In this document: positions 1,781 to 34,706 of the stretch, in pieces
How positions within the stretch are numbered: the first letter of the stretch is position 1
Layout of the letters: each line of letters begins with the position of its first letter
Assembly (NCBI GenBank): GCA_949751835.1
Contig: CATKHK010000093.1
Coordinates: 1 to 64,000, forward strand
Length of the DNA: 64,000 nt
Direction: 5' to 3'
DNA from: Blepharisma japonicum
Lineage: Eukaryota; Ciliophora; Heterotrichea; Heterotrichida; Blepharismidae
Position numbers and translations under genes: made by a program
Notes under the pieces: model-generated
What the model was told of the DNA's origin: nothing
Databases searched by the model: none
The model's input: the letters and a program-made list of their open reading frames with translations, nothing else

Positions 1781-4700
1781 ATGGATGTTATGTTAACTTT
1801 ACTGTGTGTAATTATTGTCGTCAAAAGTCAGTTCTCTATCGAAATCGCTTATAGCCCTTTCGCAAATAAATATCTCGCTTTGAACATAACTGCTTTGATT
1901 GAAAATAGTTTTCAAGGCCAGTTTGAAATTTACCTGAAATATATTGAGACTCTTGAAGATGTTTTCCAGAAAATAAATACCCCAGATATAATTTTTGATC
2001 TTACCTTTAGTGCTTCACTATTAGAATCCATCAAAGAGCTCGCAGAAGAAAAGCATTTTATAATTGCTTCTATCAATAGACCATATGGCACTTACTCCAA
2101 TTGAGAATTTTTTCTTCATAATTCATGGGAAAACCAGCTTGAAGCTTTATCAAGCATTATTTCTTATTTTAACTGAGAAACTTTTATTGTGATTTCTGAT
2201 GAAATATATAATGAAAATAATGAATTTTTTACTTATTTTTCTGACAAGAATTGCCAGTGATTCTTTTTCTCAAATAGCAATGATAAAAATTCCTCCGATT
2301 TATTTGTAGGAAAAGTAATTCAAGCCAGTGGAATAAAAAATATTGTGATATTAAATAGAGGGGAAAGTACTGAACTACTATTACAAAGTTTAGAAGAGCA
2401 AAACTTGCTTTCTACTGGAACTGGAGTTATTGCAGGAAGTCAAGGTGCATGAGGTCTATATGGAAACGGAGTTATTGCTTATTCAGAAGAAGGATTAGAA
2501 AATGCTGATAGCTATTATAGTTGCGAAGGTCTGGCTCTTATAAAATTTCTAAAGCTTCTGCTAAATTTTTCTTCGAAACCTGAGCCTTATGATTTGCTTG
2601 AATATTTAAATAAGAAAACAGTCAATCATCATCCTATCTCGAATTTTACACTTCTTAATACAGAAAATAACGCAAATACTGTAGCAGGAAATATTTTTAA
2701 TGGAAATTTGACTATATGAAATTCTTTGAATTTTCCAGGAAACTCTCCTATAATTCCAAACTCTCCAGCAACTAATGTCAATATATGAATTGCAAATGGA
2801 ACTACCAATCCAGGATCATCTCCTAATATAGCAGTCCAATCAGTAGCAAACGGAGAATTTTATGCTCTAAGCTATTGGAAAAGAATTCATGCTTTAGATC
2901 ACTTTGAAATAACAGTAACTAGCACTGATTGTGGAGCCACTCAGTTTGATCCAACTTATGGATATATCTGCTTTTCTAAACTACTAGCTACTCCTGGTGT
3001 AGGCTATTTAGTAACGCCTTATCCATATGTATGCCTTGGCTACATCTATACATTGAGAGCTTTAAATTATTCAATACCACAGATTTCTCAATATTCTACT
3101 TTTGCAGGTTTAGAAAATCAAACAAATTACCCTGAGTTCATGAGAGTGGCTAAAAGTGATATGTTTAATATACAAGTTATCTTTAATCTTGCAGTGATTT
3201 TTGGCTGAAAGCATATCTTGGTTTTCTATACTGATGCTAGCATTGACAATTATCAGTATTTTTTATCTTTAGCTGAAAAATACAATATGAAAATTGTTAA
3301 TAGCCCTGAATTCAGAAAAATTGATACTTTCTACACACCGGCTGACTATCATGAATGAAAGTGATGGTTTGAAGGTATCGTAAAACTGAAGGCAAGACTT
3401 ATCTTTCCTTTATTAATACCTCCTTATGCTTTCTATGTAATTGAGAGTCTTTATGACACAGGAATGAGACGAGGTGATATTATTGTTTTGGTTCAGTCCC
3501 GAATTGCTTATTCCATTGAGTGGGAAACTGATCAAGCACAAATACAAAAACTCATTGAGCTATTTTTTGGAGGAATTGTTACTCAGCAAGCTGAATGGGT
3601 TGGAGAATATGGGCAAATGCTATTCAATGGTTATGTTAAAGAATATGACTCGAGATGAGAATTTCGTTGCTTAGCTTTTGATTCTGCAATGCTTCTTTTG
3701 AATGGAATAAAATTTACTATATTGCAAGGTCAGAATACTAAAGATTACCAAACTATGAATAGAAATCTGAGAAAGCAGAGATTTATCGGATGCTCAGGAA
3801 CAGTGTCAATTGAGCAGGGAAGCAATCAAAGAAGCTTACCTAAAATTGGAATTTACAACCTAAGATATTCATTTACTAATAACAAAATGTATGAAGAACT
3901 TGTAGGATATTATGACCCAGGCAGTTCGGAATTTATTTCTTTAATTAATGATATTATTTGATATGATAACACTACTATCACGCCAACTGATTTAATAAGA
4001 TATGAAAATGGCTGCCCATTTCCTAGCAAAAAAATTTCTTATTCAGAAAAAGGCGCTGGAGTGTTTTATACAATTGCAATAGTGCTTGTTGTTTATACAA
4101 CAATTGGATCTTTTTTAATCTGATATAAATTATGAAAAGCTGTAAAAATTGAAAATTTAAAAGATTCTGTGCCTGTTCAGTTTGAAGATTATATTCTCAT
4201 GGCAATTGTAGCTATAGATTTTTTCCAGTTCATTAGTCAAGGTCCAGATATTGGGTGGCTATTCTTTTGGCTATCTAGACTTTGTTCTTATTCAATGACT
4301 AATTTTGACTATTCTGTTGGTAAAAATGATTATTGAATTTATTTGTATACTGCTATGATAATTTCTTGCTACTGACTTTTTTCAGCTTACATTTTGATTT
4401 TTAAGCTAAATAAGCTTGATGGGTGGCTATTGAAGTATACTAGAATTTTTGCTATTCTTTTATTGCCTATAATTGGAAATATCGTATTTGTGCCTATGGT
4501 TTCAGTACTTTTAAGTATTTTCCAATGCGATGAAGGAATTAGTAATAATTTATCTGATTCTTTTATAAAGCATGACTGCACTACTTATTGCTGAAGTAAT
4601 GAATATATATTATGAGCAGCTTTTTCACTAATTTCATTGATAAGCTATATACCTCTTTCTATCTATTTTAAATACCATTACGAGATTATTAATAGTCAAA

Positions 4701-5236
4701 TGAACATTAGAACAAAACCAATTTTTATTTTACAGAAATCTGTTTTAAAGGTAATTATAATTGCAATGAGCCAAACAGTAAAAATCTATAGCCAATCTTT
4801 GCATGGTCTATGCTGTAGCATTCTTTTCGTTATATTTATATTGATTTGCTTTAAGGAAAGGCCTTATAATTATGGCAGAATAAATTTATGATTATTTATT
4901 TCATATTTTGGAGTCTTATGGAATTTTATTTTATCTTCAATTTATTGGCTTACTGAATTTGACTGTCAAGAATTATGGATTACGCTCCAAGTTTCAGTTT
5001 GAATTTTCTTATTATTGGGAGGCATTATAATCCAATGAAAATTGATCCCAAGTTTATTGTTGACAATTAAGCCGCCAGATATCGCGACCTTTTTTAGATT
5101 TTCAATAGGTACTAAGATTTCTGCTGAGTACATTAATAATCTGAAAAGAGAAATTGTAGGAAATAAATATTTAGTTGAAGAAAAGCTTCCAAATTTTGAT
5201 AATAAAACTTGCTTATCAAATATGGTCTCAGAATAA
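1781..5236 (+). CDS. Clade A double Venus-flytrap, multi-pass membrane receptor
   Basis: Intact, 1151 residues with TGA read as Trp, TAA stop. Residues 1-17 (MDVMLTLLCVIIVVKSQ) form a signal peptide. Residues about 18-330 form a first ANF-receptor-like flytrap: the first strand, then WEFFLHNSW...LSSIISYFNWETFIVIS (the usual 'fgW..v.ii' core), and a closing NFPGNSPIIPNSP comparable to the WPGG...P of that family. Residues about 345-745 form a second one: DCGATQFDP, YPEFMRV, LAVIFGWKHILVFY, RRGDIIVL, RKQRFIGCSGTVSIEQG. Nine hydrophobic segments follow at about 756-778, 803-822, 851-874, 890-914, 943-963, 980-998, 1008-1024, 1037-1057 and 1066-1086, then a 65-residue tail. Expected at the cell surface or ciliary membrane, flytraps outside. 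The flytrap assignment is firm; ligand and output are unknown. Confidence 0.9.
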
Positions 5237-5765: not shown

Positions 5766-8700
5766 ATGGATCTTCTGTTAATTTTACTATGTTGGATTAT
5801 TTTCGTCAAAAGCCAGCTGATTGTTGAAATCATTTATAGTCCTTACACAAATAAGCACCTTGTTTTGAATATCACTGTTATGCTTGAAAATAATTTTCAA
5901 GGCCAATTTGAATTTTACCTGAACTATGTTGAGACTTTCGAAAATGTTTTCCAGAACACTTATACCCCAGATATAATTTTCGATCTTACATTTAGCACTT
6001 CACTATCAAAATCCATCAAGAGGCTCGCAGAAGAAAAGCACTTTATAATCGCTTCTATCAATAGGCCATATGACACTTACTCAAATTGAGAATTTTTTAC
6101 CCATAATTCATGGCAAAATCAACTTGAAGTTTTGTCAAGCATTATTTCTTATTTTAACTGAGAAACTTTCATTGCGATTTCTGATGAGGTTTATAATGAA
6201 AATGATGAGTTTTTTACTTATTTTTCTAACAAAAATTGCCAGTGATTCTTTTTTTCAAATAATAACGATAAAAATTCCTCTGATTTATTTATAGGAAAAG
6301 TAATTCAAGCAACTGGAATAAAAAATATTGTGATATTAAATAGAGGTGAAAGCACTGAGCTGCTATTAAAAAGTTTAGAAGAACAAAGCTTGCTTTCCTT
6401 CGGAACTGGAATTATTGTAGGAAGCCAAGGTGCATGAGGTTCATATGGAAACGGGGTTATTTCTTATGCAGAAGAAGGATTAGAAAATGCTGACAGCTAT
6501 TACAGTTATGAAGGTCTAGCACTTATAAAATTTCTAAAGATGATGACAAGTTTTTCTTCAAAGCCTGAGCCTTACGAATTGCTTGAGTGTTTAAATAAGA
6601 AAACAGTCAAACATCATCCCATCGCTAATTTTATGCTACTTAATACAGCAGATAGCGCAAATATTGTAGCAGGAAATATTTTTAATAGTAATTTGACAAT
6701 ATGAAATCCTCTGAATTATCCAGGGGGCTCTCCAATAATTCCAAACTCTCCAGTTACTAATGTCAACATATGAATTGCAAGCGGAACTACCAACCCGGGT
6801 TCATATCCTAATATTGCAGTACAATCTGTAGCTAAAGGTGAATTTTTTGCTTTAAGCTATTGGAAAAGAATACATGCTTTAGACGGTTTTGAGATCACAG
6901 TAACTAATACTGATTGTGGAGCTACTCAGTTTGATCCCACTTATGGATACGTCTGCTTTTATAACTTACTCGCTACTCCTGGCGTAGGCTTTTTAGTAAC
7001 TCCTTACCCAAATGTAAACCTCGGCTACATTTATACATTGAGAGCTTTAAATTATTCAATACCACAAATTTCTCAAGTATCTCCTTTTGCTAACTTAGAA
7101 AATCAAAAAGATTTTCCTGAATTCATGAGAGTGACAAAAAGCGACAAATTTAATATACAAGTTATCTTTAATCTTGCAGTGATTTTTGGCTGAAAGCATA
7201 TTTTGGTTTTATATGATGACAGTAGCATTGACAATTATCAATATTTTTTATCTTTAGCTGAAAAATATAATATGAAAATTGTTAATAGCCTTGAACTCAG
7301 GAAAATTGATACTTTCTACACAAGAGATGACTATCCAAAATGAAAGTGATGGTTCGAAGGCATAGTAAAATTGAAGACAAGACTTATATTTCCTTTATTG
7401 ATCCCTCCTTATGCTTTCTATGTGACTGAAGGTCTTTATGATGCAGGAATGAGACGAGGTGATGCCATTTTTTTGGTTCAGTCTCGAATTGCTTATTCTA
7501 TGTGATGGGAATCTGACACATCACAAATACAAAAACTCATTGATCTATTTATTGGAGGAATTATTGCCGTGCAAGCTGAATGAATTGGAGAATATGGGCA
7601 AATGCTATTAAATCGTTATGTTCAAGAATATGACTGAGGATGAGAATTTCGTTGCTTAGCTTTTGACTCTGCAATGCTTCTTTTAAATGGGATAAAATTT
7701 ACTATATTGCAAGGCCAGAACACTAAAGATTATAATACCATGAATGGAAATCTAAGAAAGCAGAGATTTATAGGATGCTCGGGAACAGTGTCAATTGAGC
7801 AAGGAACTAACCAAAGAAGCTTGCCTACAATCGGAATTTATAACCTAAAATATTCTGATGCTATTAAGGGGTTACACGAAGAACTTGTAGGATATTATGA
7901 TCTCGGCAGCGCTCAACCCATCTCTTTATTTAGTGAAATTATTTGGTATGATAACTCTACTGTAGTGCCAACTGATTTAATAATATATGAAAATGGCTGC
8001 CCTTTTCGTAAAAAACAAATTTCTCGTTCAGAAAATGGCGCTGGGGTGTTTTATGCAATTGCAATAGCCTTTGTTGTTTATACTGCTATTGGATCTTTTT
8101 TAATCTGGAATGCATTGTGGAAGGATGTAAAAATTGAAGAATTAAAAATTTCTGCAACTGTTCAGTTTGAAGATTATATACTTATGGTAGTTGTGGCAAT
8201 AGACTTTTTCCAGTTCATTAGTCAAGGCCCGGATATTGGCTGGCTATTCTTTTGACAGTCTAGGTTGTGCTCCTATTCAATGTTTAATTTTGAATCATCT
8301 GTTTCTAAGGGCGATTATTGAATTTATTTATATACTGCTATGATTATTTCTTGTTATTGAGTTTTTTCTGCTTGCATATTGGTTTTTAAGCTGAATAAGC
8401 TTGATAGTTGGCTATTGAGGCATACTAGGAACTTTGCTGAGCTTCTTTTGCCTATAATTGGAAATATTGCATTTGTGCCTATTGTTTCTGTGCTTTTAAG
8501 TATTTTCCAGTGTGATGAAGGAATTAGTAGTAATATATCCGACTCTTTTATAAAGCATGACTGCACTACCTATTGCTGAAATAATGAATATATATTATGA
8601 GCAATCTTCTCATTAATTTCGTTAACTATTTATATACCTCTCTCTATCTATTTCAAATACAATTACGAGATTATTAATAGCCACATCAACATTAGAACGA

Positions 8701-9233
8701 AACCAATTTTTATTTTGCAGAAATCATTTTTACAGGTTATTATAATTGCAATGAGTCAAACTGTAAAAGTCTATAGCCAATCTTTGCATGGATTATTCTG
8801 CTGCGTTCTTTTCGTTATATTTTTATTATTTTGCTTTAAGGAAAGGCCTTATAATTATGGCAGAATAAATTTGTGATTAGTTATTTCATATGTTGCAGTT
8901 TTATGGAACTTTATTTTATCGTCCATTTATTGACTTACCAAATTTGATAATCAAAAATTATGGATTGCACTCCAAATTTCAGTTTGAATTATCTTAATAT
9001 TAGGAGGCATTTTAATCCAAACTAAATTGATCCCAGGTTTACTGTTGACAGCTGAGCCGCCAGATATCGCGACTTTTTTTAGATTTTCAATAGGAACTAA
9101 AATTTCTGCTGAGCACATTAACAAATTGAAAAGGGAAATTGCAGGAAATAAAGATTTAGTTGAAGAAAAGCTTCCAAATTTTGATTATAAATCTTACGTT
9201 TCAATTGAAATGGCAGATATGGTCTCAGAATAA
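5766..9233 (+). CDS. Clade A double Venus-flytrap, multi-pass membrane receptor
   Basis: Intact, 1155 residues, TAA stop. It is the sister of the gene at 1781 in the same orientation, 529 bp after it, and differs mainly by substitutions. The signal peptide MDLLLILLCWIIFVKSQ uses TGG where the neighbour has a non-Trp codon. The second flytrap keeps DCGATQFDP, IFGWKHILVLYDD and RKQRFIGCSGTVSIEQG. The membrane half keeps the outer-loop cysteines (FQCDEG, KHDCTTYCW) and the inner motif KERPYNYGRINLW. The segment at 8052-8114 (YAIAIAFVVYTAIGSFLIW) is the first membrane helix. The tail is slightly longer than the sister's and ends ADMVSE. Probably a recent tandem duplicate with its own flank. Confidence 0.9.
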
Positions 9234-9660
9234 AAATTATTTTTAAAAAATAACGGACTCAAATCAAATAACTTTTAAATAATAAACTTTTTTTTATAAT
9301 TTTATCCTATCAAAAAATTAAAACTTTAAATTAGCCATTCATCCCAAAATTTTGCCTTAATTAAAAATAAAGCCATTCAAATATAATAAAAATTTTCAGT
9401 CTTCGGTATACTCTTTAACCAATTTTTCTCTAATTAATACAGCATTGAAAATTAAAAGGGCTACGCTCGATGAAAAATTAAGGAGAATTTAACTTGATCT
9501 TTTCAAAAGTTATATGTAAATCTTCGCTCCTCCTTTGCCTTGATCTTTGTTTCAAATAATTTTCTATTTATTAATAGTTTTATTTCCACAACCCTCACTT
9601 TTAAAACAATAAATAACTGCAAATACTATAAATTCTCGAAATTAAAAGTAATAATTTGGA
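9234..9660. other. AT-rich spacer
   Basis: About 430 bases between a gene stop and the next relic. I see no receptor homology, RNA gene or repeat. The open stretch beginning near 9540 only becomes receptor-like after 9661, so its upstream part is not supported as coding. Confidence 0.5.
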
Positions 9661-10814
9661 ATGCGAATTGGATAATATGGGAAAATGATACAAAAGGATT
9701 TGAGGGAGCACTAAAAGCAGGTTATAACTTAGGCACAGATTTTCGCTGCTTGAGCTTTGATTCTGCAATGCTTCTTTTGAATGGAATAAAATTTACTATA
9801 CAAAAAGGTCAAAATACTAAGATTATAATGTGATGAATAGAAACCTTAGAAAGCAAAGGTTAACTAGATGCTCGGGGATTGTTTCAATTGAGCAAGGAAG
9901 CAATCAAAGAAGTTTACCACAATGGCATTTATAGCATAAGGTTTGATGCTGATAAGCAAGCATTGTATGAAGAACTGGTAGGGTTATATGTTTCCAGTAG
10001 TGTCCAATTGATTTCTTTATATAATGAAATCATTTGATATGATAGCAATACTAGAGTGCCGTCTGATTTAATAATATATTAAAATGGCTGCCCTTTCCCA
10101 AAAAATGAATTTTTCATTCAGAAAAAGGTGCTGGGGTGTTTTATGCAGTTTCAATAGCCTTTGTGGCTTATACTGCTATTAGGTCTTTTTTAATATGGAA
10201 TTAATTATGGAAAGATATAAAAATCGAAAAACTAAAAAATCTATGCTCTTATTCGATGGCTAATTTTGATTTTCCTGTTTCTAAAAATGATTATTGAATT
10301 TACTTGTATACTGCTATGATCATTTCTTGCCATTGAGTTTTTTCACCTTGCATATTAGTTTGTAAGCTGAATAAGCTTGATAGTTGATTATTGAAGAGCA
10401 CCAGAACTCTTGCTAGACTTTTGCTACCTATAATTGGAAATATAGTATTTGTGCCTATGGTTTAAGTTCTTTTAAGTATTTTCCAATGTGATGAAGAAAC
10501 AAGCAATAAAATTTCTGACTCTTTTATAAGACGTGATTGCAATACTTATTGCTGAAATGATAATTATATATTATGAGCTTTTTTATCATTGATTTCGCTA
10601 ACTATTTATATACCTCTCTATCTTTTTCAGATATCATTATAAAATTATTAACAGACATATCAGCATACGAACAAAGCCAATTTTTATTTTACAAAAATCT
10701 GTTTTACAGGTAATTATTGTTGCTATGTGTCAGACCATAAAAGTTTATAGTCACTCTTTGCATGGTCTTTGTTGTAGTATACTTTTCCTTATTTTTATAT
10801 TGCTTTGCTTTAGC
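9661..10814 (+). pseudogene. Clade A receptor relic, both ends missing
   Basis: It aligns to the clade A genes from the second flytrap (the AEWIGEYG region) to the seventh membrane segment. Recognisable pieces are FDSAMLLLNGIKFTI, the GCSG region, KNDYWIYLYTAMIIS and VYSHSLHGLCCSILF. The signal peptide, first flytrap and tail are absent. Several frameshifts and in-frame TAA codons break it. A deletion near 10230 removes the second membrane helix, so the KIEKLK region runs directly into LCSYSMANFD. Clearly non-functional, and older than its intact neighbours judging by the number of breaks. Confidence 0.85.
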
Positions 10815-10861
10815 CTTGAATTCAATTTAACAATATAATTTTTATTTGATTATTTTTATAT

Positions 10862-11623: not shown

Positions 11624-14600
11624 ATGAAAAGCAATTTACTAATTCTATCATTTATCCATCTCATTCAATGCCAACTGCTTTTGGATATATTTTATAGTGC
11701 TTCAACGGATTTAGAATTTAAGAATTCGGTAACTTGTTCTATAATAGAAAATTTTTCAGACCAGTTTGATATAAAAGAAATTTTAGAAACACCTGAATTA
11801 GACATCTTAAATTCCTGGCAAAATCCCAATATTATAATTGATATAACTTCAAGCGCTTCCTTTTCAGAACTACTCAAAGAATACGCCTCAAAAAATCAAA
11901 TAATTCTCATATCACCTGAATATTCAAATTCATTCAATGACTGGCAATTTTTCACTCATTCTTCGTCTAATAGCCACATAAAGGCTCTCGGCAGTTTGAT
12001 TTCGTTCTTAAATTGGGAAAAATTTATAATACTTTCAAATAAAGATTACCAAATTTTGGATGATTATTTCTTAACAGAATTTTCAATTAAAAAAGTTAGC
12101 ACCTTTTATTTTCCAAATATTGAAAATCAGGACTTAGCTGATTTATTTATAGGGAAAGAAATTAAACCAACAGGGATCAGAAATATAATAATTTTAAATC
12201 AAGGCAAAATCGCTGAAAATTTATTAAAAAGCCTCAAACAGAAAAATATTTTAACAAGTGGTTGTGGAATTATTTTGGGCAGTCAAAGTATTTGAAATAC
12301 AAATACAAATGGAATATTAAGTTATATAGAATCAGGCTTAGAAAATGCTACCGATATATCTACCTATGAAACACTTGCAATAGTAAAATTTTTAAATTTA
12401 ATTCTAAAATTTCCTGAAAATTATGACACATTTGCCTTAAGGGAATTTTTAGAAATAAACACTGCTAATCATTATGCAATTGCGAATTTCACTGTAATAA
12501 ATATCCAAAATGAGCAAAAAATAAAAGTAGGAGAAATCACTGAAGGAGTTTTGAATTTTTCAAATAATCTGATTTTCCCAGGAAACTCATTGGAAATTCC
12601 AAACTCTCCATATACAAATGTTCCGATCTGGATGGGAGATGGCCTTACGAATCCTTTAGGATATCCAAATAGTCCTTATCAAATTCTAAAAGATGGAGCG
12701 AAGTTTGGTATTACATATGCTGAGAGGACTCATTTGCTTGATGGTTTCGAAATATCAGTGATTCATACAAACTGCGGAGCTGAAGTTTATGACCCAACAT
12801 TTTCATTAAATTGCTTTACAAAACTAAAAAGCACGCCAGGAGTTGGATATTTAACGTCACAATATCCCTTAATAATCATCGGTAACCTTGCTTCGATGAA
12901 ATATTTAAATATTTCAATGCCTATGATATCTGAATATTCCCCATTTGCTATTTTAGGAGATAAAGGAATGTTTCCAGATCTAATAAGGATGGGCGGAAAC
13001 GATTATTACCATTGCAACGTTCTGGTCGATCTAATTATCATTTTTGGATGAAAAAATGTGCTTATAATTAGTGAAAATTCTATTCCTAGCATGCTTACTC
13101 ATCAATATGTGGTGCAAAAACTGGAGGCTGCTAATATAAACATTGCAAATTCCCCTGAAGACCGATTAGTCATGGAAAATTATAATCACACTCATTATCA
13201 AACATATAAAAGCTGAATGATAAAAATGAAAAATCTGAGAGTCAGGCCTTGCATCATAAATATTGCACCCCCGTCAGAATTTTATATTATGGAAGATCTT
13301 TATGAGTCTGGGTTCAGAAGAGGAGACATCGTCATTTTAGTCCCTAATAGAGTTGCCTTTGCCTTTATTACTGAGACTGATACAGCTCAGTTGCCTAAAA
13401 TCTCAGAACTTGTTTATGGAGCCATAACTATAAGTGAAGCAGAATGGCTTGGAGACTATGGAAAAGCCATTTTGTCTGAATTTTTAAAGGATTATCCTGC
13501 CAAAAGCTCAGCTTGAAAGTGCTTCTCATTTGATGGGGCAACATTGCTTTTAAATGGTATAAAATTTACTATTGATAAAGGAGGAAATGTTGAAAATTCT
13601 ACATTATTGAACAGTAATTTAAGGCAGCAAAAATTTACAGGCTGTTCTGGTACCATTGCAATTGACCCAGATTCAAATGATAGAAGTTCAGCAACTCTTG
13701 GGATATACAATATGAGATATGACAGTGAAGATGGAATTTTATATGAATATATTGTAGGAAGATACGATCCAGGAAGCCAACAGTTATTGGCTTTTTATGA
13801 AGATGTGAATTGATATGATAACACTACGAAAGCGCCTTCTGATAGAATTATTTATGAAAATGGCTGCCCGTTTGAAAATAGTGAAGTTGAATATTCAGCA
13901 AATGGTGCTGGCATCCTTTATGGGATTTCGTTTAGTATAGTCGTGACTACGATGATTGTGACTTTTTATATATGAAGAAAATGGTGGGTAGTTGATATCA
14001 AAGAAATGACTGAAAAAAAAATAATTCAATTCGAAGATTATGTAGCGATGCTTATGATTTTGATAGATTTTTTGCAGCTAATATCAGTTGGGCCTGATAT
14101 TAAAAATTATGATTCTTTTTCTGATATTATTTCGCATTATGCTTCAATAAACTTTGGTTGGCTTACTAAAGGTAAAAATCTATGAGTTTTTACATATTTT
14201 TCAATAGGAACTGTTATCATTTGGATATTTTTTTGCGCAAAGCATATTTTCAAGTGTGGAGAAAAATCAAATAACGTTATATGGGAATACGGTAGAATTT
14301 TATCCAAGATGTCATTGCCGATTATAGGAAATATGCTATTTTTGCCTATAGTTTCAATTTTTTTAAATGTAATTCAATGCGATCAACAAATAGGGCCAGA
14401 AATAAGCCAAACATTTGTAAGAAATGACTGTTCGACATTTTGCTGGCATGACTCTCATATAATATGGGCAACTCTTTCAATGCTTTGCTTAATCTTTTAT
14501 CTCCCTCTAGCAATTTATTTTCGGCCTTTTTGGGATCTTTCCCATGAGTATATAAATATAAAAACTCGGCCGCTATTTTTGATGCTGAAAAGTGTATTCC

Positions 14601-15235
14601 AAGTAAGCGTGATCGTTCTTAATAAAACAGTGAAAACTTTCAGTCAGTCATTGTATGGACTGCTTTACAATATTTTATTAAGCATTTTTCTATTTATCTG
14701 CTATAAAAAGAAGCCTTATAACGACAGCCGCATGAACCTTTGGCAAATTATTTCTTATTTTGCAATTTTGTGAAGCGTTACTCTTTCTTCTTTATATTGA
14801 TTATTACCTAAAAAATCAGCCAAAATCTGACTATTTTTACAATTTATTGGCTGACTTTTTTTAATTGCTATCGGGCTCTACCTACAGAAAAAATATTGTC
14901 CGACGATGCTTTTTAATGAGCCAGGTGTACAAATTGGCAAATTCTTTAAATTTTCATTAGGTAGCTCAATCCCTGCATCGGAAATTAATAAAGACATCAA
15001 AGAAGCATGCCTTAAATATAAACTGCATTCTAGTAATTCTCATCTTTATGGGAAAATTTCAGATTCTACTAGGCATGTGATATATAATAAGAAAGAAAAT
15101 AAGCTTAAAATTGATATTCATTCAGATTCCTCAAGATGCGTGTTTGCAAGCGATACAACAAATCGGCCTAATATTGAACACATACCAGAAACTACCAGGT
15201 GGATTAATCTTAAGATTGAAGATTTAGAAGGATAA
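11624..15235 (+). CDS. Clade B double Venus-flytrap, multi-pass membrane receptor
   Basis: Intact, 1203 residues, the longest complete member. Signal peptide MKSNLLILSFIHLIQCQ. First flytrap: DWQFFTHSSS, LISFLNWEKFIILS, PTGIRNIIILNQGK, NFTVINIQNEQKI and the closing LIFPGNSLEIPNSPYTN. Second flytrap: NCGAEVYDPTFSLNCF, FPDLIRMGGNDYYHCNVLVD, IIIFGWKNVLIISENS, RRGDIVILVPNRVAFAF, RQQKFTGCSGTIAIDPDS. The membrane half shows QCDQQIG, RNDCSTFCW, PLAIYFRPFW and KKKPYNDSRMNLW. The extra length lies mostly in the tail, which carries charged and Ser-rich stretches (HSDSSRCVFASDTTNRP). Its only close relative is the minus-strand copy at 16081-19973, which it faces tail to tail. Confidence 0.9.
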
Positions 15236-16080: not shown

Positions 16081-18521
16081 TTAGCCCTCAATCCTAGGCC
16101 TATTTGTGGTATCACTTATAGGTATGCACTTTGAGGAATCTGAATGCTTATCAAATTTAAGTTGGCTTTCCATATTATAATTAGCAAGTTTAATAGAATT
16201 TTGAAAATTTTTCATATGCATATAGTAATTGCCATAATTCAACTTATATTTAATTTCTGCTTCTTTGATATCTTTATTAATTTCAGACGCTGGGATTGAG
16301 CTCCCTAGCATAAATTTTATAAATTTTACAATTTCAACACCTTGCTGATTGAATAGCATACTAGGACAATATTTTCTCTGAAGGTACAACCCAAAAACAA
16401 TAAAAAAAAGTAAGCCAAAAATTTGTGGAAGTAGTCAAAGATAAGCTAATTTTTTAGGTAAAATTCAATATAAAGAAGAAATAGAAACACTTCATAAAAT
16501 TGCAAAATAGGAAATAATTTGTCAAAGATTCATACGATTGTCGTTATAAGGCTTCTTTTTGCAGCAGATATATAGAAAAATGCTTAATAAAATATTGTAA
16601 AGCAGTCCATGCAATGATTGGCTAAAAGTTTTTACTGTTTTATTGAGAGCAATTACGCTCACTTGGAACACGCCCTTCAGCATTAGAAATAGTGGCAGAG
16701 TTTTTATATTCATATTTTCATCAGAAAGACTCCAAAAAGGTCGAAAATAAATTGCTAGAGGGATATAAAAAATTAAACAAAGTACAGAAAGAATTGCCAA
16801 TGTGTTATGAGAGCCATACCAGCAAAAAGTCGAGCAGTCATTTCTTACAAAAGTTTGTCTCAATTCTTTTCCTATTTGTTGATCACATTGAATTACATTT
16901 AAAAAAACTGAAATCATAGGCAAAAAAAGCATATTCCCCATAATTGGCAATGAAACTTTAAATAAAACTCTGCTAAATTCACATATAATGTTATTTGAGC
17001 TTTCCCCAAATTTGAATATATGTTTTAGACAAAAAATAACCCACACAAAAACAATCCCCATTGAGCAATATACAAGTATTCACATTTCATTACCTTTCCA
17101 CTCAAAATTTACTGACGTATAATGTGAAAGAATATTCAAATAATTATCATATATATCAGGTCCAACTGACATGAGCTGCAAAAAATCAATAAAAATCATA
17201 ATCATTGCTATATAATCTTCAAATTGAATTAATTTTTTTTCTGTCATTATTTTTATATCAACTAGCCATCATTTTTTCCATATATAAAAAGTTACAATTA
17301 TTGTCACTATCACAATGCTAAACGAAATCCCATATAAAATACTTGAACCATTTGCTGAATATTCAACCTTATTTTTTTCAAATGGGCAGCTATTATCATT
17401 AATAATTACATCAATAGGTGTATTTGTTGTATTATCATACCAATTAAAATCCTCATAAAATGCTATTAGTTGCTGGCTTCCTGGATCGTATCTTCCTACA
17501 ATATATTCATATAAAATCCCATCTTCATCATACCTCATATTGTATATTCCAATGGTTTGTACACTTCTATCATTTGAATCTGGATCAATAGAAACAGTAC
17601 CTGAGCAGCCCAAAAATTTTTGCTGCCTTAAATTGGTGTTCATTAAGATAGGATCTTCTATATTTTCTCCTTTTTCAATGGTATATTTAATTCCATGTAA
17701 AAGCAATAAAGCTGCATCAAAGGCAAAGCACTTAAATTCTGGCCTCTTAGTTGGATAAACCTTTAATAAATCCGATAAAATGGCTTTACCGAAATCTCCA
17801 AGCCATTCTGCTTCACTTATAATTATTCCTCCATAAAGCATTTCTGAAAGTTTTGATAATTGCACTTTAGGTTGAGGAATATAGGTAAAAGCAAGAGCAA
17901 TTCTATTGGGGATTAAAAATATTATGTCTCCTCTTCTAAACCCAGCATCGTACAAGTCCTCAGTTAAAAAAAACTCTCCCGGAGGTGAAAAATTTAAGAT
18001 GCATGGTCTTATTCTAAAATTTTTCATTTTTATCATTCATTCTTTATAACTTTGATAATGATCATGGGTATAACCTTCCATAATAATCCTATCTTCTGGG
18101 GAGTTCGCAATATTTATATTTGAGGATTCTAATTTCTTTATAAGATATTTATGAGTAAGTAAGGCAGCAGTTGAGTTTTCAGTAAATATCAACACATTTT
18201 TCCACCCAAAAATAAGCATAAGGTCGATGAGTACGGTGCAATGATAATAATCATTTCCAGACATCCTAATTAGGTTTGGAAAAGTTTTTTGATCTCCCAG
18301 AATAGCTGTAGTGACATGAGGTTTCCAATTATTACTAATGGATATAATGATGTCAAATATCCAACACCTGGTGTGCTTTTTAGCTTTGCAAAGCAATTTA
18401 TTGAAAATGTAGGGTCATAGACCTCAGCTCCACAATCTGTATGAATTACAGAAATTTCAAAACCTTCAAGAAAATGATTGTTCTCAGCATAAGCAAGTGC
18501 GAGTTTTGCTCCAGTTTTACT

Positions 18522-18535
18522 TACAGTATACAGTA
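18522..18535. repeat. 7-bp tandem duplication (TACAGTA x2) inside the minus-strand receptor
   Basis: Two perfect adjacent copies of TACAGTA. With one copy the gene strand reads SPYTVSKTGAK, as in the clade B paralogue; with two it shifts frame by one. It is a recent slippage event. Confidence 0.8.
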
Positions 18536-19005
18536 TAAGGGCTATCTGGATATCCCAAAGGGTTCTTAACACCATCTGCCATTCATATTGGGATATTTGT
18601 ATATGCAGAATTAGGAATTGTCAATGAATTTCCAGGAAAAATCAAATTATTTGAAAAATATAAAATTCCATCGGCGATTTTTCCTATTTCTATTTTTTGT
18701 TCGTTTTGAATATTTATTATAGTAAAATTAGCTTGTGCATGATGGTTAACTGTATTTTTTTCTAAAAATTCCCTCAGAGTCAATCTATCATAATTATCAG
18801 GGCATTTTAGCAAAAGATTTAAAAATCTTAAAAATGCTAGACTTTCATAATTATAGTAGCTATCCGCATTTTCTAACCCCGACTCTGTATAAGAAATGGC
18901 TCCATTTCCATATAAACCTCATGAGCCTTCATTTCCTACAATAACTCCAGTTCCATTAATTAGCAAATTGAATTCTTCTAAACTTCTCAATAACATTTTT
19001 GCACT

Positions 19006-19400
19006 TTCCCCATGATTATAAGATTTATATGGAGATATCATACCCAGCCACTTAAAACTTTTATTTTTTCTCCTTCCATTCAGTGGTATGGTAGAGGTTT
19101 TTGGGTTAGCAAGTAGCATACCAACAGGGTTTTTGGGGTTTTGGTGGTTTTTTGTCCCTCTTGGCATTTTTAAGAGCATTCCAGAAATTCAGTTTCTGCT
19201 TAAGCCCTTTTTATGGAAAATAGAAAATTTCTATAAGGTTGCATTTCTACGGCACATCACATTCGGCTTCGAGTCATTAGTGAGTTCATTGCAGAAAAGA
19301 AAGATGCATGGAAACAAGAAAAATTAGAAAGTTATAGTATTTCTTTCATCCTCCAGGAACTAAGCAATAATCTTGATTAAATTTAAGATTCCCCATGATT
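19006..19400. mobile_element. 383-bp insertion of unknown origin with 12-bp flanking duplication
   Basis: The 12-mer TTCCCCATGATT occurs at 19006-19017 and 19389-19400. On the gene strand both copies encode the same NHGE residues, so removing 383 bp restores a continuous receptor reading frame. This is the signature of a staggered-cut insertion. The insert has no clear terminal inverted repeat, no poly-A tail and no similarity to the receptors. Its plus strand holds a protein-like stretch, RLRVISEFIAEKKDAWKQEK, followed by LESYSISFILQELSNNLD and a TAA at 19378-19380, so it may contain a captured gene end. It is not a spliceosomal intron: it lacks GT..AG ends in frame and is far longer than heterotrich introns. 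A non-autonomous element or repair filler are both possible. Confidence 0.6.
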
Positions 19401-19973
19401 TAATATCACAATATTTCTTATCCCACTTGACTTAATTACTTTTCTTATAAATAAATCTGAATTATTTTTAGAATTGCTGTTTGGAAAATAAAATCAGCGG
19501 CAATTTTGATCATTAATATATTTGAAAATTTCATCTTTATCACGATAAACGTCATCGGAAATTACAATGAAAGTAGTCCAATTTAAATGAGAAATGATAC
19601 TTGATAAAGCTTTAATTTGATTTTCTCATGAGCTATGAGTAAAAAATTCCCAATTAGAATATAAATTGGTTGGCTTATTAATTTCTAAAAATATAGACTT
19701 TTTGTCCTCGGCGAATTTTTTTAATGTTTTTGATAGTGATGTGCTAAAAGTTATATCAAATATTACCTCTGGGCTATCCATAAGCTTTTCAATATCTCAC
19801 TTGCTCTCGACTGAAACTAAATTAAAAGAAAATTCGTTTGGAAAATTTTGTTGAAGTAAAACTGCCAAGCTTGAAGTCAAGTGTAAATCTGTGAAAGAAC
19901 TAAAACATATGTCAACAGTTATCTGGGATATTGAAAGAACGATTAAGCACACTATATTCTGTAAAGCCCGCAT

Positions 19974-21512: not shown

Positions 21513-24500
21513 ATGAAAGCTGAACTATTAATATTTTTACTTCTCCAGATAGCTGAATGCCAGCTTCTTGTGAATTTATATTATAGCGCTTTAACAGACC
21601 TAGAATTAAAATCAGTCTTATATGAAAAGCTCATTCAAAGTTACCAAAATCAGATAGAAGTAAGAGAGCGGCTAATAAGCTCTTTTAGTGATTTGGATTA
21701 TTTAGAAATAAATCCCAAAATTATCGTAGACTTAACTTTCAGTACTTCAATTTCAGAATTAATTAAAGAATATGTAGAAAAGAATCATATCATTTTAATC
21801 TCAACCCAAGACTCGTCTCATTCATATAGCAGTTGAGAATTTTTTAGTCACATCGCCAAGCAGAACCATGAAAACGCTCTTAGTAATTTAGTCTCTTTTT
21901 TCAATTGAAATGAGTTTATAATCATTTCGAATGACTTAGATGAAAGTTTTCTTGAAATTTTTTCAAATAAAATAATTAGAATTTTTTATTTTCCAAATAG
22001 CGATGATCAAAATTTGGCGGATTTATTTATAGGCAAAAACATCAAGCCTACAGGGATTCGGAATTTGATAATTATGAACCAAGGAGAAACTGCGAATAAT
22101 TTATTAAAAAGCCTGGATAATAAAAAAATCCTTAATTGCGAGGCTGGGGTTATTCTAGGTAGCCAGAGTAGCTGAAATACAAAATTAGATGGATTAGTTG
22201 GTTACACTGAGTCAGGTTTAGAAAATGCTACTGATTATTATAGCTATGAAGTCCTATCAATATCAAAATTATTAAATTTAATTCTCAGCTTTCCAGATAA
22301 TTCAAATTCTCTTGCAATAAGAGAATTTTTAGAAAAAAACACAATAAATCATTATTTGCCTGGAAATTTCACTATAATAAATATCCAAAACTCTCAAAAA
22401 ATCAATGTTGGTAGCATTTCACAAGGATCCTTAGTCTTTTCTAGCACCATAATATTTCCAGGAAATTCCACTGTAATTCCCAATTTCCCATATACAAACA
22501 TTTCTTTATGGATGGGAGATGGAGCTAGCAATCCTCTCGGGATTGCAAATAGCTCCTTCACTGTAATCAAAGATGGGGCTAAGTATGCACTTAAAACTGC
22601 AGTAGCTGACCATTTTCTTGACGGCTTTGAAATTTGGCAGACTCATATAAATTGCGGTGCAGAAGTATACGAACCTGTATTCTCTTTGAATTGTTATAAA
22701 AAATTAGTAAATGACCCTGGAGTTGCATACTTAATACACCCATTCCCAAATGTAGCCTTAGGAGATATTACATCTATGAGGGTGCTAAACATTACAATCC
22801 CTCTAGTAGCTGATCATGCAGCTGTAGGGGTTCTTTCTAGTAAAACTGAATATCCAGAGTTTATGAGAATAGCCGGAAATGATGATTACAGAGTTAACGT
22901 ATTAATTGACTTAATGTGCATTTTTGGATGGAAAAATGTCCTGATCGTGACTGAAAATTCTACAGTCAGCTGGCTAATTTATGATTATTTAATAGAACGT
23001 ATTAAGGCTGCCAAGATTAATATTGTTAATGATCCTGAAAAAATGCTAATTGCTGAAAATTACAATCCCAGCTATTTTGAGGAATATAAAGATTTAATGA
23101 AAAGTCTTCTGACTTATAAAACAAGGCCTTTTATAATTAATATGGCTCCTCCTTCTTCTTTTTATTTTTTAGCAGATTTGCATAATGCAGGAATCTCTAT
23201 GGGAGATCTGATTGTTTTATATCCTAATAAACTTGCCTTTGTGTACACAACTATACCTGATCCAGTAATGCTAGAAAATATGGCACCGATTGCTTATGGT
23301 GGAATTGTTATAAATGAAGCGGAATGGATAGGAGATTATGGCAAACAGGTGTTAAAAGGCTTTTTAAAAGCCTATCCAACTATAAATGCTGATTTTCGGT
23401 GTTTTTCTTATGATTCAGCTATGCTTGTTTTATATGCACTAAAATATACAGTGGACCAAGGACAAGATGTGTACGACTCAAGTCTTTTTAATAGTCATTT
23501 AAGGCAGCAAAAATTTTTAGGCTGCTCTGGGACTGTTTCTATTAATTCTCAGTCAAATGATAGAAATTCAGCACCGATTGGAATTTATAATATAAGGTAT
23601 GACAGTCAACATAATATATTATATGAACAATTGATAGGAGCTTATGACCTAGGGAGTTTGCAATTGTTTACTTTTTATGAAGATATCATTTGGTATAATA
23701 ATAAAACAGATACACCTTCAGATACTGTTGAATATGAAAATGGCTGTCCTTTTAAGAACAGCCAAATTGAATACTCAGCAAATGGTGCTGGAATTCTATA
23801 TGGTATTTCTATTGGAATTATTATCCATACAACCACCTTATCATTCTATATATGAAAAAAGTGATGAAATGTGGATATCGAAGACATAAGAGAGCCAAAG
23901 CTTATTCAATTCGAAGATTATGTTGCAATGATAATGATTTTAATCGATTTCTTACAATTTATATCAGTTGGGCCTGATATAGATAATTATGATATTTTTA
24001 CTTATACACTCACTCATTTTACTTCTATTAATTGGAAAACTCAAGGCGAATACATATGAATTCAAATGTATTTTTCTTTAGTCGGGATTTTAGTTTGGCT
24101 CTTTATTAGTGTAACACTTATTTTTCGTATTGGAGAAAAGTCAGAAAATGATTGCTTAGATAATTGAAAAATGCTTTCAAAGTGTTCACTGCCAATTCTT
24201 GGTAACGCGCTATTTTTGCCTTTTATTTCAGTATTTTTCAGTGTTATTCAGTGTGATCAGCAAATTGGGTCGAAATTGAGTCAATCTTTTGTGCGTAAAG
24301 ATTGCTCAACATTTTGTTGGAAAGATAACCACATATTATGAGCAATCCTTTCTATATTAAGCTTAGTCATTTATATACCTCTTGCAATATATTTCAGGCC
24401 ATATTGAGAACTCTCTCAAGACATTATTAATATAAAAACGAGACCACTTTTTTTGATGATAAAAAGTGTCTTCCAAGTCTGCATTATTGTTCTCAGCAAA

Positions 24501-24995
24501 ACAGTAAAACCTCAAAGTCAAGCACTCCACGGGCTTCTCTACTGCATTTCACTATGCATTTTTATTTTTATTTGTATGAAAAAGAAGCCTTATAACGAAA
24601 GCCGCATGAACCTTTGACAAATAATATCATATTTAGCCATTTTATGGAGTGTGACTCTTTCTTCTTTATATTGAATAATACCAACGACTTCTACTGATGC
24701 TTGAGCGTTATTAGAGTATTTAGGCTGAATTATTTTATTCATAATTGGGGTTTACCTCCAAAAATTATTCTGCCCATCGATGCTATTTAATGAGCCTGGG
24801 ATAAATGTTGTGAAATTGTTCAGATTTTCATTGGGAAGGACTATAGATGCCTCTGAAATTAATAAAGATATTAAAGAACAAGCAAGCAGATACAGCTCTC
24901 ATTTGAGCAGCTCAAGAGCTTTTATTGATCCTAATTATATTTCTCAGATAGCTATTTATAAAATAGAAACCAAGCATTATTGTACAGAGCAATAA
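21513..24995 (+). CDS. Clade C double Venus-flytrap, multi-pass membrane receptor
   Basis: Intact, 1160 residues, TAA stop. Signal peptide MKAELLIFLLLQIAECQ. First flytrap: LYYSALTDLELKS, LVSFFNWNEFIIIS, PTGIRNLIIMNQGETA, NFTIINIQNSQKINVG, IIFPGNSTVIPNFPYTN. Second flytrap: INCGAEVYEPVFSLNCYKKL, EYPEFMRIAGNDDYRVNVLI, MCIFGWKNVLIVTENS, RQQKFLGCSGTVSINSQSND. Most of the second flytrap and the first helix (NGAGILYGISIGIIIHTTTL) lie in a TGA-free run of 499 codons (22356-23855). The outer loop keeps QCDQQIG and RKDCSTFCW. The tail begins MLFNEPGINVVKLFRFSLGR and ends KHYCTEQ. The close copy at 31255 differs by a modest number of substitutions. Confidence 0.9.
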
Positions 24996-25806: not shown

Positions 25807-28800
25807 ATGGGTCTTTTAAATGCCATGCTAGCTGCAGTTATTTTTGTTGAAAGTCAATTGATTGTTGATATAATATACAGTCCTTTGACAGAACTAGACT
25901 TTGTTTTTAGTCTAAAAGTTCTGGTGGAACAAAATTTCCAGGGTCAATTTGAATTTAACCTAACTTATATAGAGAACCTCTGGGATATTGGTCAAGCCAT
26001 AAATAGCCCAAATATAATTTTTGATCTTACTTTCAGTGCCTCGTTATCAGAATCAATCAAAAAGCTGGCTGAGACGAAGCATTTTATTATTGGCTCTATT
26101 GCCAAACCAACTATGTTTTATAGCAATTGAGAGTTTTTTATGCACAATTCATGGAGAGATCAAATAGAACTTTATATACGATAATTTCTTATCTAAATTG
26201 GCAAACATTTGTGGTGATCTCTGATGAAATTCAAAGTGAAATTAATGATTTTTCAGCTTTGTTTTTTGATAAAGATTATCATTGGTTCTATTTCTCTAAT
26301 AGTAATGATGAAAACTCAGCAGATTTATTTACAGGAAGATCAATTCAGCCTACTGGAATAAAAAATATTGTTATATTAAATAAAGGGAAAAGTGCAAAAT
26401 TACTCTTAAAAAGTTTAGAAAAAATAGATTTGCTTGATCTTGGTACTGGGGTCATTGTAGGAACTGAGGGATCGTGAGGGTTATTTGGAAATGGAGTCGT
26501 TTCTTATGCAGAATTAGGATTAGAAAACGCTGATAGTGATTTTAGTTATGAAGGTTACGCCATTATAAAATTTTTAAATTTAGTCGTCAGTTTTTCCCCA
26601 ATTTCTGATCCTTCTGCTTTGCTTGGATTTTTAATAAAAAATACGATTGACCATCATCCAATTTCAAATTTCTCTCTTTTAAATGTTCAAAATAATGTGA
26701 AACTCATATCAGGAAGTATAATCAACGATAAATTAAATATTCTGAGTCCTCTGAGATATCCAGGAGGTTCTTTAGAAATTCCAAATTCTCCTTTTACTTC
26801 TCTCAATATATGATATGATAATGGAACCTCTGGCCAATTTGCTATCAACAATACCATTTGGAGAATTTTATGCATTAGAATATTATAAAACCCTTCACAC
26901 TTTAGACGGCTTTGAAATAACAACCACGCCTTGCAACTGTGGCTACATTCCATATGACCCAGTGACCGGCTTTTCCTGCTTTTCTAAATTACTTACAACC
27001 CCTGCAGTTGGCTTTTTAACATCATTTGCTCCATGAACCAGTATTCCCTATATATATACATTAAGATCTCTAAATTGTTCAATCCCTAATGTTTCTCCAT
27101 ATGCCCCTTCAACTCTTACTGAAAATATAACAGCTTTTCCCGAATTTATGACTATTATAAAAGACGAAAGATTTAATTCACAAGTCACATTAGACCTTGC
27201 CGTCATTTTTGGCTGGAAAAATTTCATTGTACTTTATGACGATAACAATAAAAATACTTATTTATATTTTCTTGCTCTGGTAGAAAAATATAATATGAAA
27301 ATCGCAAATAGGCCTGATTTACAAAAAGTGGACGATGATTATACTAGAGATAAATATCCAATATATAAGGACTGGTTTGATGAAATAATTAGCCTAAAAG
27401 TAAGGCTTTTTGTAATATTTTTGACTCCTCCTTATGCATTTTATATATGTGAAAGCTTTTTTGATGCAGGATTAAGAGAAGGTGATCTGATTATTTTATC
27501 CAATAATAGGCTTGCATATTCGCTTTCATTAGAAACTGATCCTGTCCAAAGAAAAAAGCTTGAGGAGCTCTCTTATGGAGGAATTGCAATAGCGCAAACT
27601 GAATGGATTGGGGAATATGGAAAAATGCTAAAAAATGGTTATGTTAAAGAGTACGGAAATCATACCGATTTTAGTTGCTGGTCTTTTGATGCTGCAATGC
27701 TACTTTTAAATGGAATTGAGTTTACTATAAAGCAAGGTGAAAATGTAAGGGATTATGGGGTTCTTAATAATAATCTGAGGGCACAAAAATTCACAGGGTG
27801 TTCTGGGATTGTATCTATTGAGTCTGGGGGGAACCAAAGAAGTTTTCCAACTCTGGGGATATATAGCTTAAGGTGAGACAAGAGTGATCAATCTATATAT
27901 GAAGATCTTGTAGGGCAATATGACCTTAGTAGCGCACAGCTGATTACTTTTTATAAAAGCATTTTATGATATGATAATACCACAAATGTACCTAGCGATA
28001 TAATTAGGTTTGAAAACGGATGCCCATTTCCTGAAAGAAATGTTTCTAATTCTGATAAAGGCACTAGCGTTTTATATGGAATCGCAGCTATTTTGGTAGT
28101 TCTTACAATTATTGAATCATATATAATTTGGAAACACATTTTTAAAAATATCAAAATACAAAAATTGACCACAGCTGCTCATATACATTTTGAAGATTAT
28201 ATTCTTATGGCCATTTTGGCTGTAGATTTTTTACAATTTATTTCTCAAGGCCCAGATATAAGTGAATTTTATTCATGGCTATCCAAAGCTTGTAGTTATT
28301 CAGTTATTCATTTTGATTCCTCAATTACAAAAGATACTTACTGGGTTTATTTATATTCTGCAATTACTATTTCTTTATATTGACTATTTTCATCGTTTAT
28401 TTTAATCTTCAAGCTAAACAAATTTGATAGCTGAATATTAAGACGCGCTCGAAGACTTGCTTTACTTTTACTGCCCATACTTGGGAATTTATTGTTTATA
28501 CCTATAACTTCAGTCCTTTTAAGCATTTTTCAATGTGATAAAGGAATAGGCTCAAATATTGACGATTCTTTTATTAAGCAAGACTGCACTACATATTGCT
28601 GAAATCATAAATATGCTTTATGAGCAGCCTTATCAATGGTTTCTTTAGTGACTTATATCCCCTTGTCAATTTATTTTCGACAATATTATGAGAATATTAA
28701 TGATCATATCAATATAAAAACAAATCCACTTTTTCTTATAGAAAAAACTATTTGCCAAGTAATCATAGTTTCAATGAATAAAACAATAAAAATTTACGAT

Positions 28801-29253
28801 GAATCTTTGCATGGTCTTTGCTGTATTATCCTTTTTTTCATCATGATTGTCATTTGCATCAAGCAAAGCTCTTATAATTATAGCAGAATGAATCTTTGGC
28901 TAGCTATTTCATATCTAGCCATTTTATGGAATTTTATGTTAGCATCTATTTATTGGCTCACAAAATTTGATTCTGTGATATTGTGAACTATATTGCAATA
29001 TTCGGCCTGGCTTATCTTAATAGGAGCAGGAATTATAATCCAGAAAAATCTTCCAAATTTATTATTCACGCATAAAGGAGCAGACATTACAATCTTTTTC
29101 AAATTTTTAATGGGAAATCTAATTTCTGCAGAAGATATCAATAGCATTAAAATAAAAATAGCAGAAAATAAATATTTAAATGACCAAAATTCTGTAGAAA
29201 TTGATAGCAAAGATGCTCTTTCTTTATCAAATATAAATACTCCTATTAAATAA
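25807..29253 (+). pseudogene. Clade A receptor with two offsetting frame lesions
   Basis: Signal peptide MGLLNAMLAAVIFVESQ; stop TAA at 29251-29253. Compared with the genes at 1781 and 5766, one base is missing at about 26171-26185 (after HNSWRDQIEL), and about 17 bases are missing at about 26830-26862, between the YDNGTSGQ region and GEFYALEYYK. The two net out, so only about 690 bp reads in a shifted frame. The rest is open: LAVIFGWKNFIVLYDD, RAQKFTGCSGIVSIESGGNQ, QCDKGIG, KQDCTTYCW, YNYSRMNLW and a tail starting near the HKGADITIFFKF region. The shifted region covers most of the first flytrap, so the copy is probably dead. Sequence errors at both sites are the alternative. Confidence 0.75.
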
Positions 29254-34200: not shown

Positions 34201-34706
34201 TAAAAAGTGTCTTCCAAGTCTGCATTATTGCCCTAAGTAAAACAGTAAAATCTCAAAGTCAAGCACTTCACGGGCTCATCTACTGCATTTTACTATGTAT
34301 CTTTCTATTTATTTGTATGAAAAGGAAGCCTTATAATGAAAGCCGCATGAACCTTTGGCAAATAATCTCATATTTAGCCATTTTATGGAGCGTGGTTCTA
34401 TCTTCTTTATATTGGATAATGCCAACCACTTCAATTGAAGCTTGAGTGTTAACAGAGTATTTAGGCTGGATTATTTTATTCATAATTGGAATTTACCTTC
34501 AAAGATTATTCTGTCCATCAATGCTTTTTAGTGAACCTGGGATAAATGTTGTGAAATTGTTCAGATTTTCATTGGGAAGAACTATAGATGCCTCTGAAAT
34601 TAATAAAGATATTAAAGAGCAAGTAAGCAGATACAGCTTTCATTTAAGTAGCTCAAGAGCTTTTATTGATCCTAATAATATTTCTCGGTTAGATATTTAT
34701 TCATAA
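31255..34706 (+). pseudogene. Clade C receptor with a single 1-base frameshift
   Basis: Close copy of 21513-24995. It reads open from MKAGLFVFLLLQLAECQ to DTPSDTVEY at 33477. There, GAATATGAAAATGGC of the sister is GAATATAAAATGGC, one G short. The normal frame resumes one register over (CPFKSSQIEYSANGAG) and runs open through every membrane helix to TAA at 34704-34706. The shift falls just before the first membrane helix, so as written the product would be a secreted double flytrap with a 50-residue aberrant end (stop after KSDEMWISKT at 33630). Either a very recent pseudogene, a deliberate secreted form, or a base-calling error. Confidence 0.75.

Follow-up and report, generated by a model that had tools for sequence, protein, structure and literature searches.

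Class C G-protein-coupled receptors (GPCRs) carry one Venus flytrap per chain together with a 7tm_3 domain. In ionotropic glutamate receptors an ANF-type N-terminal domain precedes a second, type II clamshell that is split by the pore, and natriuretic peptide receptor guanylyl cyclases have a single flytrap, one membrane helix and a cyclase domain. The flytraps of the bacterial proteins BvgS and EvgS belong to another flytrap class. The gene family described here forms a tandem array in a stretch of 64,000 nucleotides of the heterotrich ciliate Blepharisma japonicum (assembly GCA_949751835.1, contig CATKHK010000093.1, positions 1 to 64,000; contig 93 of 224), referred to below as the window. 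Gene 1 of the array (positions 1781-5236, forward strand) is one open frame of 1151 residues in which 20 TGA codons are read as tryptophan. Its coordinates and all of the motifs quoted in the original prediction were recovered. The central proposal, a chain of two consecutive flytraps of the ANF type (type I periplasmic-binding fold) followed by a multi-pass membrane region, was confirmed by Pfam scans of the halves, by the fold predicted for the gene 3 first half and by a profile comparison between the halves.

The Blepharisma proteins resemble the class C receptors GABA-B, mGlu, CaSR and T1R in placing an ANF-type flytrap before a multi-pass membrane domain; however, they have two flytraps and no 7tm_3 match. 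Like ionotropic glutamate receptors and plant GLRs they have serial clamshells over a membrane domain, whereas the Blepharisma chain has two type I clamshells and lacks a recognisable pore domain. The ANF-type flytrap is also shared with the natriuretic peptide receptors. Trypanosomes have receptor-type adenylate cyclases with a pair of flytraps in each chain, and those of Trypanosoma brucei likewise form a protist gene family with a two-flytrap ectodomain that, according to two papers, is thought to sense the environment (PMC6027212, PMC9481589). The trypanosome proteins have one transmembrane helix and an intracellular cyclase, in contrast to the approximately nine predicted helices and no cyclase of the Blepharisma family. 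BvgS and EvgS, as described in a third paper, also hold tandem flytraps in one chain and form a dimer of such chains (PMC5573083); unlike the present family they are bacterial and combine a single membrane helix with a histidine kinase output. The original prediction, which stated that known families have one such domain per chain, was thus incomplete on this point. Its companion statement, that no named family combines two flytraps with a multi-pass region, agrees with the open-access papers, in which none was found. Since chains with two flytraps are already known, what is new here is that they are combined with a multi-pass domain of no recognised class.

The gene 1 protein begins with a hydrophobic N-terminus (residues 1-16, positions 1781-1828, all features being on the forward strand), a probable signal peptide with a hydropathy peak at residues 4-22 and a putative cleavage site. 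Flytrap 1, a diverged ANF-type domain, spans residues 17-331 (positions 1829-2773), and flytrap 2 spans residues 332-740 (positions 2774-4000) with a match to ANF_receptor of 48.5 bits (E 8.8e-13). The membrane domain, with approximately nine predicted helices and a three-cysteine loop between helices 4 and 5, occupies residues 758-1088 (positions 4052-5044). It is followed by a short C-terminal tail (positions 5045-5233) in which the Pfam scan recognised no domain. In the first half, the motif FNWETFIVIS is located at residue 130 and the closing motif NFPGNSPIIPNSP at residues 317-329; the general form of the latter, PG.S..IPN, is conserved. In the second half IFGWKHILV is found at residue 473, RRGD at 563, GCSG at 670 and WYDNTT at 727. 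RRGD and GCSG had both been predicted in each complete gene. This holds for GCSG, which every one of the nine complete window proteins contains, as does a tenth protein truncated at the window end; it fails for RRGD, which gene 4 and the truncated tenth lack and the other eight complete proteins contain.

Seven of the ten window proteins, namely six of full length and the truncated tenth, were scanned, and all seven match the Pfam family ANF_receptor (PF01094, curated cut-off 25.4 bits) above its cut-off. When the halves were searched separately with hidden Markov models, as the original prediction had proposed, flytrap 2 scored 48.5, 52.3 and 78.4 bits in genes 1, 3 and 10, exceeding the cut-off each time, and flytrap 1 scored 15.8, 30.7 and 18.5 bits, exceeding it in gene 3 only. 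A wider set of 31 members was assembled from the nine complete window genes and 22 genome loci chosen as full-length matches of gene 3. In 18 members of this set the first half matches ANF_receptor at E<=0.01, the best at 1e-10, and no other Pfam family is matched by any of the 31 first halves at that threshold. The family profile of flytrap 2 retrieves taste receptors, CaSR, mGlu and NMDA receptors from the Protein Data Bank (PDB), with a best E of 1.6e-10, and also GABA-B at E 0.003; these matches mostly cover the first lobe, residues ~428-552. A single-sequence search with flytrap 2 of gene 3 gave a weak match to a natriuretic peptide receptor (E 0.07).

The first half of gene 3 (flytrap 1 at positions 11672-12658) was folded alone from an alignment of 14 window sequences, yielding five models. 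The best model, with a predicted local distance difference test score (pLDDT) of 71.4 and a predicted template-modelling score (pTM) of 0.73, displays the alternation of helices and strands of a type I binding protein. A Foldseek search with this model returned 460 PDB chains at E<=0.001, the best with E 4.6e-12 and probability 1.00. The best 50 of these 460 are all chains of AMPA or NMDA receptors, some of them isolated N-terminal domains. Flytrap 1 of gene 3 is therefore predicted to fold as a bilobed type I flytrap, and a different fold, which would have spoken against the two-flytrap layout, was not seen for this half.

Four distant loci extend the comparison. L031 was chosen for two ANF_receptor matches in one frame, L032 for matches to both a flytrap and the membrane domain, and L033 and L034 because they match a flytrap only and their contigs have no membrane-domain match among those listed. 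Each holds an open frame that encodes the three parts found in the window genes. Against ANF_receptor, L031 scores 63.6 bits (E 2e-17) for flytrap 1 and 146.6 bits for flytrap 2; its flytrap 2 also matches Peripla_BP_6 and is closest to plant GLR3.4 (E 5e-18), followed by GABA-B1 (E 6e-12). The second halves of all four exceed the ANF_receptor cut-off. The family profile of the first half detects all four loci with E values of 5e-8 to 6e-40 in a search of these four sequences, and L032, L033 and L034, which were picked on flytrap 2, all have a full-length first half. When built from the 31 nearer members alone, the first-half and second-half profiles gave a weak match, with a probability of 6.5% and E 0.0056, compared with E 0.068 or worse in five shuffles. 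With the four distant loci added, the match reached E 1.9e-5 and a probability of 77.6% over 239 colinear columns, and neither half's profile matched the membrane part in the same comparison. The colinear match indicates, at the level of sequence profiles, that both halves are flytraps of common ancestry, arranged in series.

Several observations weigh against the two-flytrap reading. The flytrap 1 of gene 1 itself, at 15.8 bits, lies under the ANF_receptor cut-off, and 13 of the 31 first halves fall short of E 0.01. Among the distant loci, the first half of L032 scores 12.4 bits and that of L033 24.6 bits, both below the cut-off, and that of L034 has no Pfam match. The other four models of the gene 3 first half are poorer (pLDDT 53.9-61.7), and the best model superposes only loosely on solved structures (template-modelling score, TM-score, ~0.5; root-mean-square deviation 8-10), so the lobe arrangement within it is not reliable. 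A full-length model has a mean pLDDT of 43.1 and was given no weight for fold or interface. The same applies to its Foldseek matches, of which the best 50 of 497 (E<=0.001) are flytrap receptors with TM-scores of 0.10-0.14.

The nine complete window genes form 36 pairs, and substitution patterns were measured in the 16 whose membrane-domain synonymous divergence (dS) is below 1. The ratio of nonsynonymous to synonymous divergence (dN/dS) is 0.19-0.40 for flytrap 1, 0.18-0.39 for flytrap 2, 0.19-0.27 for the membrane domain and 0.16-0.71 for the tail. The low ratios in both halves indicate that both flytraps are kept, and no positive selection was seen in these pairs, the tail included. Among genes 5-9 the mean pairwise difference is 0.210 in flytrap 2 compared with 0.135 in the membrane domain, a contrast reached by 30 of 20000 block permutations, and flytrap 1 is not clearly more different than the membrane domain (2336 of 20000). 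Faster change of flytrap 2 is not general, since in genes 1 and 2 this domain evolves no faster than the membrane part (8759 of 20000).

The arrangement of the two flytraps can be approached through the linker between them. Type I binding proteins are entered by the chain in lobe 1 and left from lobe 2. The last strand of the gene 3 flytrap 1 model ends at residue 312, and in L031 the Peripla_BP_6 match of flytrap 2 begins 15 residues past the closing WPG. By analogy, flytrap 2 of gene 3 would start near residue 332, leaving a linker of approximately 20 residues. Such a short linker, combined with the chain path, would place flytrap 1 on top of flytrap 2 in a stack like that of glutamate receptors. 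The flytrap dimer in cis that had been proposed earlier, by which one chain could sense ligand pairs, is not supported as stated. A linker of this length would suit two flytraps stacked end to end better than it would a side-by-side pair like that of class C receptors. Stacking in series would leave the lobe-1 surfaces free for pairing with a second chain, and by this analogy a serial stack, possibly assembled as a dimer of tandems, is preferred over the cis dimer.

Nine hydrophobic stretches follow flytrap 2 in the hydropathy scan, and the low-confidence full-length model has nine long helices at corresponding places, plus one shorter helix. The three cysteines of the loop between helices 4 and 5 are invariant in all 31 members; with the ectodomain outside, this loop would also lie outside and the tail inside. 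The count and topology have their weak points: the nine helices derive from hydropathy and low-confidence secondary structure, the hydropathy scan also flags a buried stretch in flytrap 2 (residues 464-482), and the loop charges support the topology weakly. Approximately 25 residues with one conserved cysteine separate WYDNTT of flytrap 2 from helix 1, and thus a class C cysteine-rich domain is absent.

Pfam scans of the 31 membrane domains gave no family in more than two members, all weak, and nothing meaningful for the membrane pieces of genes 1, 3 and 9 or, in the case of gene 1, for the C-terminal piece. Single matches such as DUF7087 and S_4TM occur in one or two members below their cut-offs and were set aside as chance. 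A PDB profile search with the 31 membrane domains returned nothing at E<=10; with 18 diverse members it returned one match at E 1.8, taken as chance. The 7tm_3 domain was rejected as an identity for the membrane domain, with 0 of 31 members matching at E<=1 and three genome matches, one above the cut-off, located elsewhere. TRP (PF06011) was likewise rejected, with 0 of 31 members and 35 genome matches outside known family places. Neither a type II ligand-binding domain nor a Lig_chan pore was found by Pfam in the seven scanned window proteins or in the 31 membrane domains, no cyclase domain was found in those seven proteins, and the membrane domain has no Ion_trans match and no recognised pore motif.

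The family extends far beyond the window. Two membrane-domain queries gave at least 93 genome matches (93 of 279 candidates scored) and at least 101 (101 of 265), whose union is at least 160 separate places spread over 43 contigs; 27 of these places lie on the contig of the window. A genome search with ANF_receptor gave at least 106 matches (102 of 267 candidates scored). These counts are lower bounds for places, broken copies among them. On balance, the genes probably make up a very large chemoreceptor family with two serial flytraps above a novel membrane domain of approximately nine predicted helices. This reading builds on four observed steps: the architecture, the homology of the halves, the low dN/dS and the tandem amplification. 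The members would be putative cell-surface chemoreceptors in which a small ligand closes flytrap 2, the membrane-proximal and better conserved domain and the one that has diverged furthest among the young paralogues 5-9. Flytrap 1, on top, may modulate flytrap 2 or form an inter-chain contact. Closure of flytrap 2 might move the first membrane helix directly, because only approximately 25 residues lie between them.

The output of such a receptor divides the explanations. The proteins could be ligand-gated ion channels that arrived independently at the plan of ionotropic glutamate receptors, with serial clamshells over a pore, and this is a possibility of real weight, if short of probable. It is consistent with the NMDA and AMPA receptor chains that make up the best 50 of the 460 structural matches of flytrap 1, with a tail that has no recognised domain and with the electrical nature of ciliate chemoresponses. 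The lack of a Lig_chan, Ion_trans or TRP match or of a recognisable pore motif argues against it, as does the second clamshell, which is type I where glutamate receptors have a type II ligand-binding domain. Somewhat less credit is due to the view that the proteins are highly diverged class C GPCRs of GABA-B type, with an added flytrap, a seven-transmembrane (7TM) part altered beyond recognition and G-protein signalling, which appears rather doubtful. The closeness of flytrap 2 to class C and plant GLR flytraps and the absence of a cysteine-rich stalk, as in GABA-B, would suit these receptors; however, no 7tm_3 match falls at a family locus and the predicted hydrophobic helices number approximately nine, not seven. 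In addition, no canonical G-alpha was seen in the genome search, in which all 38 candidates were scored and 19 partial matches covered the switch region common to small GTPases. No G-alpha match reaches the cut-off by itself; a pair within a single 676-residue frame on contig 42 does so once neighbouring matches are added in. The tail without a signalling domain and the missing canonical G-alpha are the reasons for guessing at current: that the membrane domain itself conducts or gates current is conceivable and deserves attention without being the expected outcome, coupling to a G protein seems fairly unlikely, and other kinds of output share the remaining probability. This argument is weakened by the genome's eight RGS domains above the cut-off, two of which immediately adjoin 7tm_3-like matches under the cut-off; these domains favour the GPCR view and reduce the value of the missing G-alpha as a discriminator between outputs. 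G-protein-type signalling may exist in this ciliate, and G-alpha could be too diverged for detection. Outside the window, on contigs 25 (371502-372662) and 81 (97450-98616), the adjoining RGS and 7tm_3-like matches share a strand, an arrangement suggestive of 7TM-RGS fusion receptors. The genome also contains 87 guanylate-cyclase domain matches, many of them paired approximately 1.5 kb apart, perhaps representing some forty two-domain cyclases.

The remaining explanations concern the ligand-binding part. Flytrap 1 may be degenerate and serve only as a spacer, so that the chain works as a receptor with one flytrap. The first halves score far below the second halves on ANF_receptor, with 13 of 31 short of the threshold given above, as would be anticipated for a spacer, and the 31 nearer members, picked as full-length matches, provide no fair test of it. 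The first-half dN/dS, the conserved closing motif and the full-length first halves kept by the distant L032, L033 and L034 all point the other way, and a mere spacer is judged unlikely. Nutrient transporters or scavengers, in which the flytraps would be substrate-binding domains fused to a transporter-like membrane part, are improbable. Bacterial transporters have flytraps of the same fold, and the Peripla_BP_6 match of L031 flytrap 2 is in keeping with this; nonetheless, the membrane domain matches no transporter family in Pfam or the PDB and at least 160 loci are more usual for receptors than for transporters. Flytraps of the ANF-type class often bind amino-acid-like molecules, which brings the mating signals of Blepharisma, the gamones, into consideration. 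In the accessible text of a 2024 paper the gamone 1 receptor is called putative and no gamone 2 receptor is named (PMC10892320). The great majority of the loci cannot be gamone receptors, and the presence of such receptors in the family is a long shot.

The window contains nine complete genes, a tenth cut by its end, the tail of another at its start and several broken copies. On the forward strand, the C-terminal tail of a further upstream copy, recognised by the translated tail motif FFRFSMG....DIN, is cut by the window start (positions 1-216). Gene 1 is followed by gene 2 (5766-9233, 1155 residues), a decayed copy of short frame fragments that contain family motifs (9456-10838) and gene 3 (11624-15235, 1203 residues). 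Three pieces of one or more broken copies occupy positions 16081-19973 on the reverse strand. The forward strand continues with gene 4 (21513-24995, 1160 residues), a copy broken into several frames (25816-29253), a broken copy with ~91% DNA identity to gene 4 that loses its frame at the end of flytrap 2 (31255-34706) and a fragment of a further copy (35222-35737). The copy at 31255-34706 is either a recent pseudogene or an assembly error. Genes 5 (37227-40685, 1152 residues), 6 (42124-45564, 1146 residues), 7 (46843-50322, 1159 residues), 8 (52482-55964, 1160 residues) and 9 (57666-61142, 1158 residues) then follow, all complete, and gene 10 (61813-63999), cut by the window end, is complete in the genome as L017 with 1167 residues. 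The decayed copies and fragments at 9456-10838, 16081-19973, 25816-29253 and 35222-35737, one set on the opposite strand, are interspersed among intact genes, and the array thus shows birth and death of copies.

The long frames require TGA to be read as tryptophan: the longest is 499 residues under translation table 11, compared with 1146-1203 residues under table 4. Three units of the telomere repeat CCCTAACA match 77 times forward and 91 times in reverse genome-wide, and the backward-read control pattern 0 and 0 times. Both this code and the repeat are published for Blepharisma, as given in one paper (PMC9942806). Codon choice diverges strongly within the family: TGA encodes 2 of 23 tryptophan codons in L031 (280-4047) compared with 9-21 of 22-33 in the nine window genes.

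A 2023 survey of 27 ciliate species with profiles of 7TM and related GPCRs reported no family C receptors and, in its accessible text, does not name Blepharisma (PMC9960496). Flytrap receptors with another membrane domain would escape surveys based on 7TM profiles. It is tempting, though doubtful, to see here a new receptor superfamily in which two serial type I flytraps drive an undescribed nine-helix output domain, possibly a ligand-gated channel with an origin separate from that of glutamate receptors, and whose growth to at least 160 loci supplied a chemosensory repertoire that includes the gamone receptors. The loci constitute a candidate set for how a large single cell distinguishes chemicals, and gamone receptors might be sought among them. 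For structural work the membrane domain offers a new target, and if it proves to be a channel, flytrap-gated channels would have evolved at least twice.

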